This document shows, piece by piece, positions 4,926 through 11,291 of a stretch of DNA of 64,000 nucleotides (positions are counted from its first letter, which is position 1; the number at the start of each line of letters is the position of its first letter). This DNA is from an uncultured Christensenellaceae bacterium (GTDB taxonomy: Bacteria > Bacillota > Clostridia > Christensenellales > Aristaeellaceae): positions 1 to 64,000 of the forward strand of contig CAJOJQ010000014.1 in NCBI GenBank assembly GCA_905234985.1, read 5' to 3'. The position numbers and the translations under genes are program-made. The notes under the pieces were generated by a model. The model saw only the letters and a list, made by a program, of their open reading frames with translations. It did not search any database and was not told the origin of the DNA.

Positions 4926-7199
4926 TCACAGCAATGCCCGCTGGATTTTTCCGCTGGTAGTCTTGGGCAATTCGTCCCGGAAGACCACGATGCGGGGGTA
5001 TTTGTAGGGCGCGGTGCGCTGCTTGACGTAGCTTTGGATTTCTTTTTTGAGTTCCTCCGTGCCCTCTTTGCCCTTCACCAGCACGATGCTGGCCTTGACC
5101 ACCTGGCCGCGAACGGGATCGGGCGCGGCGGAAACGCCGCACTCCAGCACGTAGGGCAGTTCCATAATAACGCTTTCGATCTCGAAGGGTCCGATGCGGT
5201 AGCCGGAGGACTTGATCAGGTCGTCCACCCGGCCCACGTACCAGAAGTAGCCGTCCTCGTCCCGCCAGGCAGTGTCGCCGGTGTGGTAAAGGCCGTCGTG
5301 CCAGTTGCCGTTCACGTTCTTGTCGTCGCTGCCGTAGTAACCGGTGAGCAGGCCGCAGGGCGGGTTGTTTTCCCCGGTATGGATCACGATCTCGCCCACC
5401 TCGCCAACCGGCACGGGGTTGCCATTGGGGTCCACCAGGTCCACGTCATACAGCGGCACGGGCTTGCCCATGGAGCCGGGCTTGGGGGTCATGCCGGTGA
5501 GGTTGCCGATGATGATGGCGCTTTCGCTCTGGCCGAAGCCCTCCATGATGGTGATGCCGGTGGCTTCCTTGAACTTCTGGAATACCTCGGGGTTCAGGGC
5601 CTCGCCCGCGATGGTGGCGTAGCGGATGGAGGAAAGGTCGTACTTGCTCAAATCCTCCTTGATCAGCATGCGGTACATGGTGGGCGGCGCGCAGAAGGTT
5701 TTGATGCCGTACTGCTTGAACAGGGGCAGGATATCGTCGGCGTGGAAGCGGTCGAAATCGTACACGAACAGGGCGGCTTCGCACATCCACTGGCCGAAAA
5801 TCTTTCCCCAGCAGGCCTTGGCCCAGCCGGTGTCCGAAATGGTCAGGTGCAGCTGGCCCGGCATGACGTTATGCCAGAACTTGGCGGTCATGTAATGGCC
5901 TAAGGGGTACTTGTGGCTGTGGCACACCAGCTTGGGATAGCCTGTGGTGCCGGAGGTAAAGAACATGAGCAGGGGATCGTCGCCGCAGGCGGAATCCTCC
6001 GTGCGGTCGAAATGGGAGGAAAACACGCTGTATTCGCTGTCGAAATCGTGCCAGCCCTCCCGCTGTCCGCCGCAGAACACCAGGGTCTTGATGCCGGGGC
6101 ATTCCGGCAGGGCCTTTTCGATCTCTCCCGCCGCCTGGCCGTGGCTGGTGCATACCACGCCGCTGACTTCGCCGGTTTGGAAGCGGTAAATGTAATCCTT
6201 GCACAGCAGCTGGTCGGTGGCCGGGATCACCACCGCGCCGATCTTTTCCATGGCAAGCATGGTGATCCAGAAATGGTACTGGCGGCGCAGCACCAGCATG
6301 ATCCGGTCGCCCTTCTTGATGCCAAGGGACTTGTAGTAATTGGCGGCCCGGTTGCTCATCTTGTGGAAATCCAGGAAGGAGAAGCGGCGCTCCTTCTTGT
6401 TGATGTCCAGGTGGACCATGGCAAGCTGATCGGGATGCTCCTTCGCCAGCTCGTCCATGATGTCGAAGGCGAAATTGAAGCGCTCGATATCGTGGTAATG
6501 AACGGACACGGGCGTGCCCTTGTCGTTGACCTTGGCGTCCACGAACCGGTCGGCGATGATGGACTGGGCCTGCTGCGCCGGGGCGGCGGCGTCGTGGATG
6601 TGGGGATTGTAATCCGTTTCCTCGCCAGGGATGACCACGGCCAGGAACACGCAGTCCTGCCCCTCGGCGGCGATGAGGCCGTGGGGGGTGGAGGAATCGA
6701 AGAACACGGAATCGCCCGCCCGCAGGGTTTCCGTATGCTCGCCGATTTGGGCGCGCAGCACGCCGGACAGGATGTAGTCAAATTCCTGGCCGGGGTGGCT
6801 CACCGTTTCGATGGGAGCCGCCTGGAGGGCGGGGTCGTAGGAATAGCGGGTCAGGTACGGCTCCACGATGCGCTTGCGGAACATGGGGGCCAGGTTCAGC
6901 ATTTTGATGCCCTTGATGTCCGTGACCACCTCGCCTTCCCCGTGGCGGGTGACGGTGTAATTGGACAGGCGGGGGCTGGTGCCCTCGATCAGGTCCACGA
7001 TGTCCACGCCGAAGGCGGCGGCGCACTTGTGGACGAAGGAGAAGGGCATTTCCACGCTGCCGGTTTCGTACCAGGCGCAGTCCGCCTCGCTGAAACCCGT
7101 CATGCGGGCCAGATCGGCGGTGGTATAGCCAGCGATATCTTTCAGTTCGCGGATACGGGCGGCCACGTCCCGCAGCATTTCGGGGGCCTGGGTTGGCAT
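4926..7199 (-). CDS. XRE-cupin-AMP-forming acyl-CoA ligase fusion
   Basis: 757 residues in three parts. Residues 8-65 are an XRE-type helix-turn-helix (IAGYTTADLARMTGFSEADC). Residues 110-190 are a small cupin domain (HPGQEFDYILSG, STPHGLIAAEG). Residues 215-757 are an ANL-family ligase of the acetyl/medium-chain type with the P-loop FFTSGTTGYPK, YHTGDTAWRDEDGY, GRVDDLIKSSGYRIGPFE and the catalytic lysine motif TTSGKIQR. It should activate a carboxylic acid to its CoA thioester using ATP; the chain cannot be read from sequence, though branched or aromatic acids fit the neighbours. AGGAGG lies 8 bases before the ATG. A T-box leader precedes it and the divergent 2-oxoacid oxidoreductase operon lies beyond. 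The XRE-cupin part may act as a regulator or as a ligand sensor. Confidence 0.9.
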   Translation of the reverse strand: MPTQAPEMLRDVAARIRELKDIAGYTTADLARMTGFSEADCAWYETGSVEMPFSFVHKCAAAFGVDIVDLIEGTSPRLSNYTVTRHGEGEVVTDIKGIKMLNLAPMFRKRIVEPYLTRYSYDPALQAAPIETVSHPGQEFDYILSGVLRAQIGEHTETLRAGDSVFFDSSTPHGLIAAEGQDCVFLAVVIPGEETDYNPHIHDAAAPAQQAQSIIADRFVDAKVNDKGTPVSVHYHDIERFNFAFDIMDELAKEHPDQLAMVHLDINKKERRFSFLDFHKMSNRAANYYKSLGIKKGDRIMLVLRRQYHFWITMLAMEKIGAVVIPATDQLLCKDYIYRFQTGEVSGVVCTSHGQAAGEIEKALPECPGIKTLVFCGGQREGWHDFDSEYSVFSSHFDRTEDSACGDDPLLMFFTSGTTGYPKLVCHSHKYPLGHYMTAKFWHNVMPGQLHLTISDTGWAKACWGKIFGQWMCEAALFVYDFDRFHADDILPLFKQYGIKTFCAPPTMYRMLIKEDLSKYDLSSIRYATIAGEALNPEVFQKFKEATGITIMEGFGQSESAIIIGNLTGMTPKPGSMGKPVPLYDVDLVDPNGNPVPVGEVGEIVIHTGENNPPCGLLTGYYGSDDKNVNGNWHDGLYHTGDTAWRDEDGYFWYVGRVDDLIKSSGYRIGPFEIESVIMELPYVLECGVSAAPDPVRGQVVKASIVLVKGKEGTEELKKEIQSYVKQRTAPYKYPRIVVFRDELPKTTSGKIQRALL

Positions 7200-7233
7200 A
7201 GCGATAACCTCCTAATTCGTGTGGAGTGTGAAA

Positions 7234-7331
7234 GTGAGGAGATAGGAGATAGGAGTTTGAAAGGCGGATATGCGCCTTCGACGGAAGCGGAATCAAAATA
7301 AACTCCTACCTCCTCGCTCCTACCTCCTCAC
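7234..7331. repeat. Heptamer-arm hairpin element, GGAGATA/GGAGGTA family, copy 1
   Basis: The left arm (7234-7257) is built of 7-base units such as GGAGATA. The right arm (7301-7331) is the reverse complement of the same kind of units (CCTACCT, CCTCGCT). The 43-base centre has its own small hairpin. It lies between the T-box terminator and the ligase start, so it is inside the ligase mRNA leader. A second copy lies at 57093-57260. Confidence 0.8.
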
Positions 7332-7346
7332 TCGTCTTGCGGGGGC

Positions 7347-7634
7347 AGACAAAAGCCCGCCCCAAAGTGTTTCTTTGAGACGGGCTGAATAAGCATCAGC
7401 TCGCGGTACCACTCAAATTGCGCGGTGTGATCGCGCCCCTTATGGACTCCCATGAAGCCCTTCGCACTGACGCAGCGTTCGCGGAGCAGCTTACTTGGGG
7501 GAACCGCCCCTGTTCAGGTGCCCGGCTCGGAAGCCACAGCCTGATGGATCCCCGCCGCCGGTTTTCAGCGCCCCCGGCTCTCTGTGGGTGGACATTCCAT
7601 CCGCCTTCTTCGTCATCGCCTTTGGTATGCGATT
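7347..7634 (-). ncRNA. T-box riboswitch leader
   Basis: Read on the minus strand, the leader starts about 7 bases after TACACT. It carries the K-turn pair GATGA (near 7614) and AGAGAG, and then the near-invariant T-box GAGTGGTACCGCG at 7402-7414. A terminator stem (7351-7367 with 7373-7386) with TTTTG follows. T-boxes sense uncharged tRNA and switch between terminator and antiterminator. Stem I looks short and lacks a clear AGTA turn, so the specifier codon is not assigned. The next gene on this strand is the acyl-CoA ligase. Confidence 0.88.
7351..7386 (-). terminator. T-box conditional terminator
   Basis: On the minus strand AGCCCGTCTCAAAG pairs with CTTTGGGGCGGGCT over a 5-base loop, followed by TTTTGT. 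The T-box sequence 15 bases earlier would compete for it in the antiterminator. Confidence 0.8.
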
Positions 7635-7640
7635 GGATGT

Positions 7641-7669
7641 AGTGTAGCAGATAAAAAAGGAAAAGTCAA
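7641..7669 (-). promoter_or_regulatory. Promoter of the T-box / ligase transcript
   Basis: On the minus strand: TTGACT, 17-base spacer, TACACT. It is positioned just before the T-box leader. Confidence 0.75.
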
Positions 7670-7724
7670 CAGGCAATTGGTTGGATTCTTTCTCTGTATA
7701 CAAAAGAAATACAGTATTTGATGG

Positions 7725-7753
7725 TTGACATTTTCCGCGCTCGGTTTCATAAT
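7725..7753 (+). promoter_or_regulatory. Promoter of the ATPase / oxidoreductase operon
   Basis: TTGACA, 17-base spacer, CATAAT, 37 bases before the ATPase start. It diverges from the T-box promoter about 55 bases away. Confidence 0.8.
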
Positions 7754-7789
7754 GACATGGTACTCTTTGAACGGGAAGGAGGGAAAGCC

Positions 7790-8476
7790 ATGCGGCGCAT
7801 GACCGTGATCGCGGGCCATTACGGCAGCGGGAAAACGGAATTGGCTGTGAGCCTGGCCATGGAGCTGGCCCAGGGGTCAAAACGGGATTATCCCCGGCTT
7901 GCCATTGTGGACTTAGACGTGGCGAACCCCTATTTCCGTTCCAGGGAGCGCATGGATCTTCTGGAAGCCCACGGCGTGGCCGTGTACGGCGACACCTTCC
8001 ATTCCACCGGCGCCACGGCGGAGCTTCCCGCCCTGACCGCCGCCCTGCGCGCTCCCCTGGAGGACGAAGGCTGCCAAACCATCGTCGATTTGGGCGGCAA
8101 CGACGCCGGGGCGCGGGTGCTGCGGCAGTTCGGCAAGTATTTTGAGGGCGACGATCACGAACTGTGGGCGGTGGTGAACTTCCGCCGGTATGAAACGCTG
8201 ACGGTGGAAACCGCCCGGGAGCATGTGGAAGCCATTCAAAACGAATTGCAGATACGGGTGACGGGGCTGGTAAACAATACCCACTTGCTCCGTGAGACCA
8301 CGGCGGGCATCATCCGGGAAGGGTACGAAAAGGCCAAAACCCTGTCAGAAAAGATGAACATTCCTTTATTATTCACCTGTTATCCCGCGGGCATCGTTCA
8401 GCCGGAGGAACTAAAGGGCATTGCGCCCCTTCGTCCTCTGGGCCTGTACATGCGGCCCGCCTATCTGGATAAATAA
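7790..8476 (+). CDS. P-loop (MinD/CobQ-like) ATPase next to the 2-oxoacid oxidoreductase
   Basis: 228 residues. The N-terminus has a Walker A GHYGSGKTE, then IVDLDVANPYF and IVDLGGNDAGARVL, as in SIMIBI-class NTPases related to ParA/CobQ. AAGGAGGG lies about 8 bases before the chosen ATG. Genes of this type commonly stand before VOR-type 2-oxoacid:ferredoxin oxidoreductase genes in Clostridia, where they are annotated only as ATP-binding proteins. An accessory role such as Fe-S cluster or complex assembly is possible but not shown. It is separated from the ferredoxin gene by an inverted-repeat element of about 190 bases. Confidence 0.8.
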   Translation: MRRMTVIAGHYGSGKTELAVSLAMELAQGSKRDYPRLAIVDLDVANPYFRSRERMDLLEAHGVAVYGDTFHSTGATAELPALTAALRAPLEDEGCQTIVDLGGNDAGARVLRQFGKYFEGDDHELWAVVNFRRYETLTVETAREHVEAIQNELQIRVTGLVNNTHLLRETTAGIIREGYEKAKTLSEKMNIPLLFTCYPAGIVQPEELKGIAPLRPLGLYMRPAYLDK

Positions 8477-8477
8477 A

Positions 8478-8667
8478 CGTATCTGTTCAGCCAAGTTGAG
8501 TTTTCCATTTTGATGGGTCATCTAATATGTAGGGGCGGATATTATCCGCCCGTCTCCGTAACATTTTCCAAATTGTTCGGAATCATTTCATTCGGGCGGA
8601 TGATATCCGCCCCTACATACCGGGTAGCCCAGCAAGGTGGTTAAACCCAGCTTGACTGAACAGATAC
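8478..8667. repeat. MITE-like long inverted repeat containing two GGGGCGGATATYATCCGCCC elements
   Basis: The ends are GTATCTGTTCAGCCAAG (from 8480) and the reverse complement of GTATCTGTTCAGTCAAG (to 8667). Similarity continues inward for about 75 bases on each side to TGTAGGGGCGGAT, with palindromes at 8532-8551 and 8596-8615. The element fills the gap between the ATPase and ferredoxin genes. No reading frame was seen in it. Confidence 0.75.
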
Positions 8668-8702
8668 AATAAAACAAATAAATGTAGGAGGAGAAAAGAC
8701 GA

Positions 8703-8930
8703 ATGCGGGCGTTTAAGCTGGTTTTCCGTCCGGAAAAGTGCAAGGGCTGCGAGCTGTGCCGTTCCGTATGCCCCAAGGGCGTCATCGGCATGGCGGCCAC
8801 CGTCAATGCCAAGGGGTATCACCCCGCCTGCGCCGTGAACCAGGAAGCGTGCATCGGCTGCCAAAGCTGCGCGCTGATGTGTCCTGACGGCGCGATTGCC
8901 ATTTATCAGTTGGAGGAGGGCGACCAATGA
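8703..8930 (+). CDS. 2-oxoacid:ferredoxin oxidoreductase, ferredoxin-like (delta) subunit
   Basis: 75 residues with two 4Fe-4S motifs, CKGCELCRSVCPKG and CIGCQSCALMCPDGA, which carry electrons from the TPP subunit to external ferredoxin. GTAGGAGGAG is the ribosome site. Its TGA overlaps the ATG of the alpha subunit (ATGA), and the same coupling links all four genes of the operon. The order delta-alpha-beta-gamma is that of VOR/KOR-type enzymes. Confidence 0.92.
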   Translation: MRAFKLVFRPEKCKGCELCRSVCPKGVIGMAATVNAKGYHPACAVNQEACIGCQSCALMCPDGAIAIYQLEEGDQ

Positions 8931-10021
8931 TCACCGATAAAGTCCTCATGAAGGGCAACGAGGCCTTTGCCGAGGCCGCCATCCGCGGCGGCGCGCGGCT
9001 GTATTTCGGCTATCCCATTACCCCCCAGAGCGAGGTTCCCGAGTATATGAGCCGGGAACTGCCCAAGCACGGGGGCTGCTTTGTGCAGGCGGAAAGCGAG
9101 CTGGGGGCCATCAACATGGCTTACGGCGCGGGCAGCGCCGGCGGCACGGTATTCATTTCCTCTTCCTCTCCCGGCATCGCCCTGATGCAGGAGGGCATGA
9201 GCTTCCTTTGCTCTGCCGAAGTGCCGCTGCTGGCCATGAACGTATCCCGCGGCGGCCCCGGCATCGGCGGCATTCAGCCCGCTCAGGCGGACTATTACCA
9301 GGTCACCCGGGGCGGCGGCAACGGCGACTATAAAATCCCCGTGTTCGCCCCCGCTTCCATCCAGGAAGCCGTGGATATGCTGTACGAAGGCACTGAAATG
9401 GCCCAGTATTGGCGCAATCCCATCATGATTTTGGCCGACGGCATGATCGGCCAGATGATGGAACCTGTGCGCCTGCCGGAATTCAAGCCCGTGCTGGCCC
9501 CCAATGAAATCGCGGGCAAGCGGGACTGGGCCTGCACCGGCTACGCCGACCGGGGCGGCGACCAGAACCGCCGGGTGGTGAAGTCCCTGCGCATGCAGCC
9601 CGAAAAGTTAGAAGAACACGTGGAAAAGCTGTTCAAAAAGTACGCGCGGATGGAAAAAGAGCTGGCGAAGTACGAGACCGAAAACCTGAAGGGCGCGGAG
9701 GTCGTGTTCGTGGCCTTCGGCACCACCGCCCGCATCTGCCGGGAAGCCTGCGAGATCCTGGCGAGCCAGGGCGTCAAGGCGGGCCTCATCCGGCCCATTT
9801 CCCTGTGGCCCTTCCCGGACAAGGCCTTTGACGAGATCGACTTCGGCACGACCAAGGCCGTCATTTCCGCCGAATTGTCCATGGGCCAGATGATCACCGA
9901 CGTGAAGCTGGCGCTGAACGGTCGTCTGCCCGTGTTCCTGGCCCACCGCACCGGCGGCATGGTGCCCACCACCCCCGAGGTGGCCCAGCGCGCCAAGGCT
10001 GTATTGGAGGGATTGAAATGA
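8927..10021 (+). CDS. vorB: 2-oxoacid:ferredoxin oxidoreductase alpha subunit (VorB-like)
   Basis: 364 residues. It carries the pyrimidine-binding and core domains of POR/VOR alpha subunits: GNEAFAEAAIRGGARLYFGYPITPQSE at the N-terminus, QAESELGAINMAYGAGSAGG, then the C-terminal transketolase-like domain with FVAFGTTARI. The length and start fit VorB (3-methyl-2-oxobutanoate dehydrogenase). The exact 2-oxo acid, branched-chain or 2-oxoglutarate, cannot be settled from sequence alone. It works with the beta and gamma subunits to convert a 2-oxo acid, CoA and oxidised ferredoxin to acyl-CoA, CO2 and reduced ferredoxin, or the reverse. Confidence 0.9.
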   Translation: MITDKVLMKGNEAFAEAAIRGGARLYFGYPITPQSEVPEYMSRELPKHGGCFVQAESELGAINMAYGAGSAGGTVFISSSSPGIALMQEGMSFLCSAEVPLLAMNVSRGGPGIGGIQPAQADYYQVTRGGGNGDYKIPVFAPASIQEAVDMLYEGTEMAQYWRNPIMILADGMIGQMMEPVRLPEFKPVLAPNEIAGKRDWACTGYADRGGDQNRRVVKSLRMQPEKLEEHVEKLFKKYARMEKELAKYETENLKGAEVVFVAFGTTARICREACEILASQGVKAGLIRPISLWPFPDKAFDEIDFGTTKAVISAELSMGQMITDVKLALNGRLPVFLAHRTGGMVPTTPEVAQRAKAVLEGLK

Positions 10022-10770
10022 AGCCCATTTTTGAATACACCAAGGGCATGACCGAAATGCCCACCCATTACTGCCCCGGCTGCACCCATGGCATCGCCCA
10101 TCGGCTGATCATGGAAGTGCTGGATGAAATGGGCATGTTGGGCAACACCATCGGCGTGGCCCCCATCGGCTGCTCGGTCATGGCCCACCAGTACATGAAC
10201 GTGGATATGTGCGAGGCCGCCCATGGCCGCGCCCCCGCCGTCGCCAGCGGCATCCGCCGGGTACACCCGGACAAGCTCGTGTTCACCTACCAGGGGGACG
10301 GCGACCTGGCCTCCATCGGCACCGGCGAAATCATCCACGCCGCCGTGCGCGGGGAAAAGTTCACCACCTTCTTCATCAACAACGGCATCTATGGCATGAC
10401 CGGCGGCCAGATGGCCCCCACCACCCTGATCGGCCAGAAGAGTACCACCAGCCAGGACGGCCGCAGCAAGGAACTGAACGGCATGCCCGTGAAAATGAGC
10501 GAAATGCTGGCCACCATCGACGGCGCGGCCTATGTGGAGCGCGTGGCGCTGGACAGCCCCGCCCACGTGCGGCAGGCGAAAAAGGCCATTCGCAAAGCCT
10601 TTGAAATTCAGCAAAAGGGCTTAGGCTTCACGCTGATCGAATTCCTGTCCACCTGTCCCACCAACTGGGGCATGACCCCCGTGAAGGCCCTGGAATGGGT
10701 GCGCAATAACGTGATGGCCTACTATCCCATCGGGGTCATCAAGGAACCCGCAAAGGAGGAACAGGCATGA
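10018..10770 (+). CDS. 2-oxoacid:ferredoxin oxidoreductase beta (thiamine diphosphate) subunit
   Basis: 250 residues. HYCPGCTHG near the N-terminus and the TPP/Mg motif GDGDLASIGTGE...NNGIYGMTGGQ identify the cofactor-binding subunit. The reaction centre is shared with the alpha subunit. It starts within the alpha stop codon (ATGA). The C-terminal segment EFLSTCPTNWGMTP is typical of VOR/KOR beta subunits. Confidence 0.92.
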   Translation: MKPIFEYTKGMTEMPTHYCPGCTHGIAHRLIMEVLDEMGMLGNTIGVAPIGCSVMAHQYMNVDMCEAAHGRAPAVASGIRRVHPDKLVFTYQGDGDLASIGTGEIIHAAVRGEKFTTFFINNGIYGMTGGQMAPTTLIGQKSTTSQDGRSKELNGMPVKMSEMLATIDGAAYVERVALDSPAHVRQAKKAIRKAFEIQQKGLGFTLIEFLSTCPTNWGMTPVKALEWVRNNVMAYYPIGVIKEPAKEEQA

Positions 10771-11291
10771 GCACGTATAAGATGTTTTTCGCCGGTTCCG
10801 GCGGCCAGGGCGTGCTGCTCATGGGCCAGATGATCGCCCAGGCGGCCATGCTGGAAGGAAAGGAAGCCACCTTCCTGCCCTCCTACGGCCCCGAAATGCG
10901 CGGCGGCACCGCCAACTGCACCGTGGTGGTTTCCGATAAGCCCGTTTCCTGCCCCCTGATTTACGAGGCGGACATCGCGGTGGTCATGAACCTGCCCTCC
11001 ATGGACAAGTTTGAGCCGATGGTAAAGCCCGGCGGGTTTATGTTCTACAATGAATCCATCATTGACCGCAAGCCCAACCGGGACGACATCAAGGCCGTGG
11101 CGGTCGATCTGGCCGCCCGCGCCGCCAAGTTAGGCAACGACAAGGTCGCCAACATGGTGATGTTAGGCGAAGTGGTGCGGGGCACCGGCGTGGTGCAGCC
11201 CGAAACCATCTTCAAGGTCTTTGAAGAAAAGTTCACCGGCAAGAAAGCCGCCCTGATCCCCCTGAACAAACAGGCGTTTTTGGGCGAATAA
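10767..11291 (+). CDS. 2-oxoacid:ferredoxin oxidoreductase gamma subunit
   Basis: 174 residues of the POR-gamma fold. GSGGQGVLLMGQMIAQAA at the N-terminus and PSYGPEMRGGTANCTVVVSD in the middle form the CoA-binding region. It overlaps the beta stop by four bases. It is the last gene of the operon, with a strong terminator 15 bases later. Confidence 0.92.
   Translation: MSTYKMFFAGSGGQGVLLMGQMIAQAAMLEGKEATFLPSYGPEMRGGTANCTVVVSDKPVSCPLIYEADIAVVMNLPSMDKFEPMVKPGGFMFYNESIIDRKPNRDDIKAVAVDLAARAAKLGNDKVANMVMLGEVVRGTGVVQPETIFKVFEEKFTGKKAALIPLNKQAFLGE

Follow-up and report, generated by a model that had tools for sequence, protein, structure and literature searches.

Isoacids are fed to ruminants, and Allison, Robinson, Peel and others reportedly carried out labelling work in rumen bacteria, between 1962 and 1971, on how branched volatile fatty acids are carboxylated. 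In this reductive carboxylation isobutyrate is the precursor of valine, 2-methylbutyrate of isoleucine and isovalerate of leucine, as set out in the relevant passages of PMC7356843. Judged by titles, the rumen work is physiology and labelling, whereas the locus described here offers genes and their control. It lies in a 64,000-nucleotide stretch of DNA from an uncultured Christensenellaceae bacterium (contig CAJOJQ010000014.1, positions 1 to 64,000; hereafter the window), where a T-box leader with a valine specifier precedes a gene for an acyl-CoA ligase fused to helix-turn-helix (HTH) and cupin domains, and genes for a ferredoxin-dependent 2-oxoacid oxidoreductase (VOR type) are divergently placed. 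From the sequence relationships we consider it highly probable that this locus and its relatives in gut and rumen Clostridia allow isobutyrate and 2-methylbutyrate, and perhaps isovalerate, to be carboxylated reductively for branched-chain amino acid synthesis under tRNA gating, with the enzyme activities as predicted below. The nearest relative on record (L056), whose ligase is 99% identical, comes from a goat reticulum metagenome.

Described T-boxes for isoleucine and valine (Rfam RF00230) share with the window leader a stem I, a specifier, a UGGN bulge, an antiterminator/terminator pair and a match to the full model. The present leader differs from them in its low score and in its target, an acyl-CoA ligase (followed by VOR in many relatives) rather than a synthetase, a transporter or a classical biosynthetic gene. 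The closest solved structure to the ligase is MacsMa of Methanosarcina acetivorans (3ETC; 597 bits over residues 239-755), the next reaching 367 bits. MacsMa has the same pocket Trp and, at the position of residue 460 of the window ligase, the Gly of our isoleucine-type enzymes, whereas the valine-type enzymes have Ala there and MacsMa is without the HTH-cupin part. We know of no tRNA control of MacsMa. Among NCBIfam families the ligase part is matched best by MbcS (NF047394), at 424.4 bits and below the cut-off of 850.

A literature search with partial coverage, TBDB itself being unqueried, returned no relevant paper linking a T-box with acyl-CoA, an acyl-CoA ligase, isobutyrate or a ferredoxin oxidoreductase. 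Likewise, no paper tying isoacid-activation genes to their control was found in a search that left most subscription journals outside its coverage. The terms acyl-CoA, fatty acid and oxidoreductase are absent from a T-box review (PMC7583486), as are acyl and CoA from the TBDB paper (PMC7778990). One Geobacter T-box hit was discarded as a precedent, its gene being leuA in the relevant part of PMC2700814. RNA and enzymes alike belong to known classes; what appears new is how they are wired together and that codon and residue switched jointly. The features of the ligase and its leader are as follows.

7641..7669, minus strand: sigma-70-like promoter of the ligase leader, a consensus match only (TTGACT 7669-7664, 17-base spacer, TACACT 7646-7641)
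7373..7625, minus strand: T-box leader of the Val type, at the full length of the RF00230 model and aligned with homologous leaders
7535..7537, minus strand: specifier triplet GUG (valine), then G 7534 and the stem CUUC 7533-7530, by RF00230 model columns
7402..7414, minus strand: T-box sequence GAGUGGUACCGCG (GAGTGGTACCGCG at 7414-7402), with the bulge UGGU at 7411-7408
7355..7385, minus strand: intrinsic terminator hairpin predicted from sequence, with a 5′ arm that overlaps the antiterminator and a run of T after it
4926..7199, minus strand: ligase fusion of 757 amino acids with HTH (13-67), cupin (133-189), AMP-binding (250-608) and C-terminal (673-751) domains
5820..5822, minus strand: Ala460 codon; by alignment, this residue varies with the specifier and is Gly where the leader senses Ile

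Positions 7625-7373 on the minus strand match RF00230 in cmscan at 76.4 bits (E 9.3e-17, model positions 1-219 of 219), a full-length match though one under the gathering score. The promoter, stem I, T-box sequence and terminator are where the original prediction, made from the letters of the window, had placed them, and the antiterminator and terminator sequences are both present and overlap. The leader thus described is presumably a working transcriptional T-box riboswitch for tRNA-Val. It leads, as had been claimed, only to an acyl-CoA ligase, the sole long gene before the strand changes; that this ligase is an HTH-cupin fusion (Pfam HTH_31, Cupin_2, AMP-binding and AMP-binding_C) had gone unseen. 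An inverted-repeat insertion at 7231-7333 (minus strand), outside the T-box, separates the terminator from the start codon; it has 30 matches in the genome, itself counted, and all the others are partial.

One critical question is which amino acid the leader senses. In the same model columns that give GUG here, orthologues L057, L058 and L060 have GUA, and the isoleucine paralogue of the same genome (leader L014, contig C38, before a ligase 67% identical) has AUC; the amino acid read for the window is valine, one of those derived from a 2-oxo acid. As a control, the specifier columns gave the cognate codon in eight of nine T-boxes before synthetase genes of the same genome, the genes being named by inspection of their translations: valS GUC, alaS GCC, pheS UUC, metG AUG, serS UCC, proS CCC, cysE-cysS UGC and ileS AUC (with the A to the left of a gap inside the triplet), thrS being one base off. 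GUA, GUG and GUC, which occur across the Val leaders, are synonymous codons. The TBDB rule takes nucleotides 2 to 4 from the specifier-bulge end and allows adjacent frames (stated in the pertinent section of PMC7778990). A tryptophan reading (UGG, one base downstream) was considered because, according to the same section, 46% of Trp T-boxes have U in the bulge. It was rejected, since the GUA of the orthologues would give UAG in that frame. tRNA-Cys carries U73; the bulge UGGU fits discriminator A73, and the tRNA-Val(UAC) of this genome ends in ...A-CCA. A cysteine reading (UGU, one base upstream) was also rejected, its frame being broken in 4 of 48 Val leaders and UGU making up 0.00 of Cys specifiers in the table concerned of PMC7778990.

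Homologous loci were taken as the best 80 of at least 591 matches; together with the window and the paralogue, 119 of their 127 ligase genes could be counted, those with fewer than 300 bases upstream or without the N-terminal part being set aside. A T-box core precedes 113 of the 119. Specifiers read by script in 110 leaders were AUC in 62 and GUA, GUG or GUC in 48, with no other triplet, and three more that the script left unread are GUA, GUC and AUC by eye. Wherever both specifiers of a tandem pair were read, Ile comes first and Val second (34/34), and the bulge is UGGU in all 116 ligase leaders in which it was scored. When nine of the 80 loci were passed through cmscan, 13 of the 14 T-boxes found stood before a ligase, and the specifier columns gave AUC, GUA or GUG in seven of the eight ligase leaders examined, the AUC of L126 lying inside an insertion. 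Leader and ligase therefore stay together across homologous loci, which removes the explanation that the T-box belongs to a lost gene. VorB is present in 50 of the 80 loci (41 on the same strand, 9 on the opposite one), and many of the remainder end before VOR could show. The genes are repeatedly arranged as T-box(Ile)-ligase-T-box(Val)-ligase-NTPase-ferredoxin-VorB-VorA-VorC (e.g., L064, L067, L073 and L120). The window belongs to a smaller group with a divergent VOR set: here the T-box does not precede the VOR genes, which in many relatives come after the T-box-controlled ligases.

A second question is what the ligase activates. The preferred substrate of MacsMa is 2-methylbutyrate, and its Trp259 occupies the place of Trp416 of acetyl-CoA synthetase (Acs), according to the passages of PMC10455477 on these points. 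This Trp is retained as W442 in the window ligase (chain numbering is one off) and in 104 of 104 ligases, and the window ligase has Gly (G556) where Acs has Trp414. The best entry named acetyl-coenzyme A synthetase scores 282 bits and the best named acetate-CoA ligase 198 bits, against 597 for 3ETC. An enzyme for acetate only had been named as contrary to the proposed route; by sequence relation, the nearest enzyme of solved structure is one that prefers 2-methylbutyrate, not an enzyme for acetate. When the 104 ligases were aligned, 11 columns set the Ile group apart from both Val groups under a loose criterion, eight of them with one residue shared by both Val groups. The only one without exception is residue 460, which is Gly in 62/62 Ile-type ligases, Ala in 36/36 of the main Val group and Ala in 6/6 of the group containing the window. 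It aligns with Val310 of E. coli Acs, which we take to be an acyl-pocket residue; a literature search for Val310 with Trp414 as pocket residues found nothing to confirm this. No pocket residue is named in the accessible portions of PMC10906504 and PMC7773535. Ala rather than Gly at this position is in keeping with an isobutyrate pocket smaller than one for 2-methylbutyrate, and isobutyrate is the predicted substrate of the Val-type enzymes.

With 44 further rows added, residue 460 is Gly in 90/90 Ile-sensed and Ala in 58/58 Val-sensed ligases, an agreement of 148/148; three of the 44 were more than 97% identical to a row used earlier, and the agreement among the others is 41/41. Of the 40 held-out loci, 22 were read as Ile or Val by the looser specifier script, 16 yielded a different triplet or no reading, and two had no T-box (L244, Ala; L260, Gly). 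The 22 all agree (15 Ile with Gly, 7 Val with Ala). Fourteen of the 16 misread loci were labelled otherwise, L225 and L228 (both Gly) being left unlabelled: model columns gave the label in ten (L224, L227, L230, L235, L232, L239, L240, L243, L246 and L258), an earlier specifier script in L233, and in L223, L226 and L229, where the model columns were one base off (UCC), AUC was taken, on the strength of a five-pair stem (L223, L226) or of the earlier script (L229). Six more leaders (two of L097, and those of L105, L115, L117 and L119) were read by eye with the residue already known. A cmscan of ten held-out leaders put the label in the model columns in 10/10, five of which had first been read by eye. 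Ligases with unreadable leaders were left out of the counts: L068 first, L083 first, L091 first, L096, L102 first and L106 (Gly), L104 second, L132 and L134 second (Ala), and L135 first (Ile). That the ligases instead activate another acid, such as acetate, propionate, phenylacetate or indoleacetate, with an indirect link to Ile and Val, draws on the diversity of the superfamily and on a substrate predicted from sequence only. The substrate preference of the nearest solved enzyme, the complete agreement of specifier and residue 460, the invariant MacsMa Trp and the Gly in place of Acs Trp414 make it very improbable.

In the ligase tree the specifier changes twice and residue 460 changes twice, on the same branches. 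Six ligases shorter than 600 amino acids and six with the leader cut or unread by script (L096, L115, L117, L097 second, L105 second and L119 first) were excluded from it. The Val group of the window is nested among Ile-type enzymes, sister to the Ile paralogue of its own genome. Placing all Val ligases in one clade was rejected by the approximately unbiased test (p 3.8e-5, on 30 rows hand-picked from the 104). The valine switch arose twice.

The pathway context was surveyed in 297 genomes of the order, 62 of which have an unbroken fusion among the matches listed. VorB (E 1e-60 or better) is found in 59/62 fusion genomes versus 104/235 others, IlvC (over cut-off) in 6/62 versus 86/235 and IlvD in 5/62 versus 86/235; Fisher values overstate this evidence because the genomes are related. 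The draft genome to which the window belongs (92.7% complete) gave no IlvC or IlvD match, its only long IlvB-like hit is IolD, and IlvE, the branched-chain aminotransferase, is above cut-off. Across the phylum, 398 genomes were sampled, and 14 of them, among which is this one, gave a match with E no higher than 1e-200. These counts bear on another role for the ligases, the supply of branched acyl-CoA primers for membrane fatty acids, in which the T-box would be a proxy for branched-chain supply. Branched acyl-CoA primes fatty acid synthesis in many bacteria, MbcS is said to serve so in Staphylococcus, and MbcS is the sub-threshold NCBIfam match of the ligase part. We regard this role as unlikely: the switches read amino acid tRNAs, one per amino acid, the ligases are joined to VOR in 50/80 loci, and IlvC and IlvD are missing from most fusion genomes.

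For the favoured use of isoacids in amino acid synthesis, the following mechanism is proposed. When valine is short, uncharged tRNA-Val would bind the GUG of stem I and the UGGU of the antiterminator by base pairing, so that the terminator would be prevented and the HTH-cupin-ligase made. The ligase would make isobutyryl-CoA from scavenged isobutyrate, converting ATP to AMP. Reductive carboxylation by the ferredoxin-dependent oxidoreductase encoded next to it would turn this into 2-oxoisovalerate, and IlvE would aminate the product to valine. The unlinked paralogue under the Ile (AUC) T-box would feed 2-methylbutyrate into the same route, yielding isoleucine. The tRNA-sensed path from acid through acyl-CoA and VOR to amino acid had been anticipated in the original prediction; it stands as far as sequence evidence reaches, sharpened to valine. 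The aromatic amino acids that were also proposed find no support, with an aromatic specifier in 0 of 110 script-read ligase leaders. The carboxylating direction of VOR is presumed. VOR-type enzymes are reversible and serve amino acid fermentation in archaea, and this could favour the opposite direction, in which VOR would degrade branched 2-oxo acids to acyl-CoA and a reversed ligase would save ATP. A T-box, however, activates its gene under a shortage of charged tRNA, the wrong signal for catabolism; the ligase belongs to the AMP-forming type, and the classical pathway is lacking in most fusion genomes. We find this oxidative alternative hardly credible.

Leucine may have its own member of the system. 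T-box L002 (G000:C37, 1501-1742), with the specifier CUC (Leu), stands before a LeuA-like gene, divergent and short of the LeuA cut-offs in score, followed by a protein of 824 amino acids and IlvE (L265 7021-12240 for the set); the 522 residues scanned near the C-terminal end of the 824-residue protein are an acyl-CoA ligase. L101 (2594-6608) and L133 (1243-5207) likewise carry a CUC T-box, a LeuA-like gene and a TIM barrel-AMP-binding ligase fusion, and in both this set sits upstream of an Ile-type ligase. Isovalerate is a natural guess for the substrate of the third ligase. On balance we incline to the broader view that each branched-chain amino acid has its own T-box-gated ligase, that codon and acyl-pocket residue changed together twice and thereby predict the substrate, and that this is the genetic basis of isoacid use in the rumen. 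In that wider picture, held with the same moderate confidence, the leucine member would be the TIM-barrel-ligase fusion, and tRNA charging would pick the isoacid to be activated. The locus family would then give candidate genes for a long-known rumen pathway, with a predicted substrate for each and a would-be controlling signal. It would also offer the regulatory codon as a means to annotate enzyme substrates, and a case in which RNA specifier and enzyme residue apparently switched together more than once.

Several observations weigh against this interpretation. The leader scores below the Rfam gathering score of 93, which is why a default Rfam scan of the window reported no T-box and the evalue mode was required; that score is passed by 2 of the 17 T-boxes of the genome. 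Folding of 7335-7642 is no more stable than that of shuffled sequences (z -0.20), an uninformative value. A U precedes the triplet in 44/48 script-read Val leaders, and the UGU frame is therefore seldom broken. GUG requires tRNA-Val(CAC) or wobble by tRNA-Val(UAC), and only UAC is among the 46 tRNA hits; tRNA-Val(CAC), tRNA-Val(GAC) and tRNA-Ile(GAU) were not among these hits of the draft genome, which seems incomplete for tRNAs because its own T-boxes suggest the latter two. Besides residue 460, ten columns met the loose pattern, seven of them sharing one residue between the two Val groups, and the pocket position of residue 460 is deduced from alignment and general knowledge of Acs. There is no VOR within 20 kb of the Ile paralogue, IlvC does occur in the six fusion genomes mentioned, and the core pattern is absent from 6/119 ligase genes, one of which (L097) has a variant core with AUC. 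The loci and genomes are related, so the counts do not represent independent events: the tree shows just two changes of specifier, too few for the correlation to be tested statistically.

Also on that side stands a distant sample of 40 upstream regions (low-identity fusions, split versions and ligase-only genes), in which the core lies on the strand of the gene in 14/40; in L165 it lies on the opposite strand, together with the start of a ligase-only gene. AUC was read by script or model in most of these distant cores, ligase-only genes included, the model columns being one base off in L141, L146 and L158 and no sure reading being obtained for L144 and L149. Ligase genes without the fused part (L165, L167, L168, L170 and L171) carry Ile T-boxes too, from which we surmise that the Ile switch and a plain ligase are older than the fusion and the Val switch. 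The HTH-cupin and ligase parts are split by one stop codon in several genomes, which suggests that the fusion perhaps arose from neighbouring genes. An HTH and a cupin fused to an enzyme, with such a history, could also mean a DNA-binding regulator in the main, with the ligase as its sensor. We judge this highly improbable: five ligase genes that carry no fused part are also under Ile T-boxes, and the enzyme is therefore what the switch follows.

The divergent VOR-type operon is present as originally described; the P-loop NTPase at its head had gone unmentioned.

7790..8476, plus strand: P-loop NTPase, a weak NUBPL/ParA match (19.4 bits, below the cut-off of 27.1) in a conserved position
8703..8930, plus strand: 2x[4Fe-4S] ferredoxin-like delta subunit (Pfam, NCBIfam)
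8927..10021, plus strand: VorB-type alpha subunit of 2-oxoacid:ferredoxin oxidoreductase (NF005507, PRK07119; 460 bits, cut-off 399)
10018..10770, plus strand: thiamine pyrophosphate-binding beta subunit (PF02775; PorB_KorB 113 bits, below the cut-off of 262)
10767..11291, plus strand: gamma subunit (PF01558, 135 bits; PorC_KorC 77.8 bits, just below the cut-off of 81.1)

The gamma, beta and delta subunits score below their NCBIfam cut-offs, and specificity for branched 2-oxo acids is that of the family name only. The NTPase is kept between the ligases and the ferredoxin/VorBAC genes in many loci and is possibly a maturation factor for Fe-S clusters or VOR. A second palindromic element (GTAGGGGCGGATATTATCCGCCC...) occupies window positions 8530-8620, between the NTPase and ferredoxin genes.

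Elsewhere in the genome, T-box L012 (G000:C18:64263-64529) reads UGG (Trp) by model columns and has an unusual target, an apparent iron-type alcohol dehydrogenase. T-box L004 (G000:C67:2872-3093) reads UAC (Tyr), also by model columns, before an apparent pyridoxal phosphate-dependent aminotransferase and is possibly an aromatic counterpart of the same strategy. IorA/IorB-like genes lie divergent from another acyl-CoA ligase at L266 2344-7057 (G000:C29), where none of the 17 T-boxes is located. Among the relatives, a Clostridiales-1 RNA (RF01699, 113 bits) occupies L103 571-749, between the Ile T-box and the ligase, and upstream of position 7001 in L106 an apparent decayed or variant T-box (GGGTGGTATTATGG) precedes an Ile-type ligase (Gly460).

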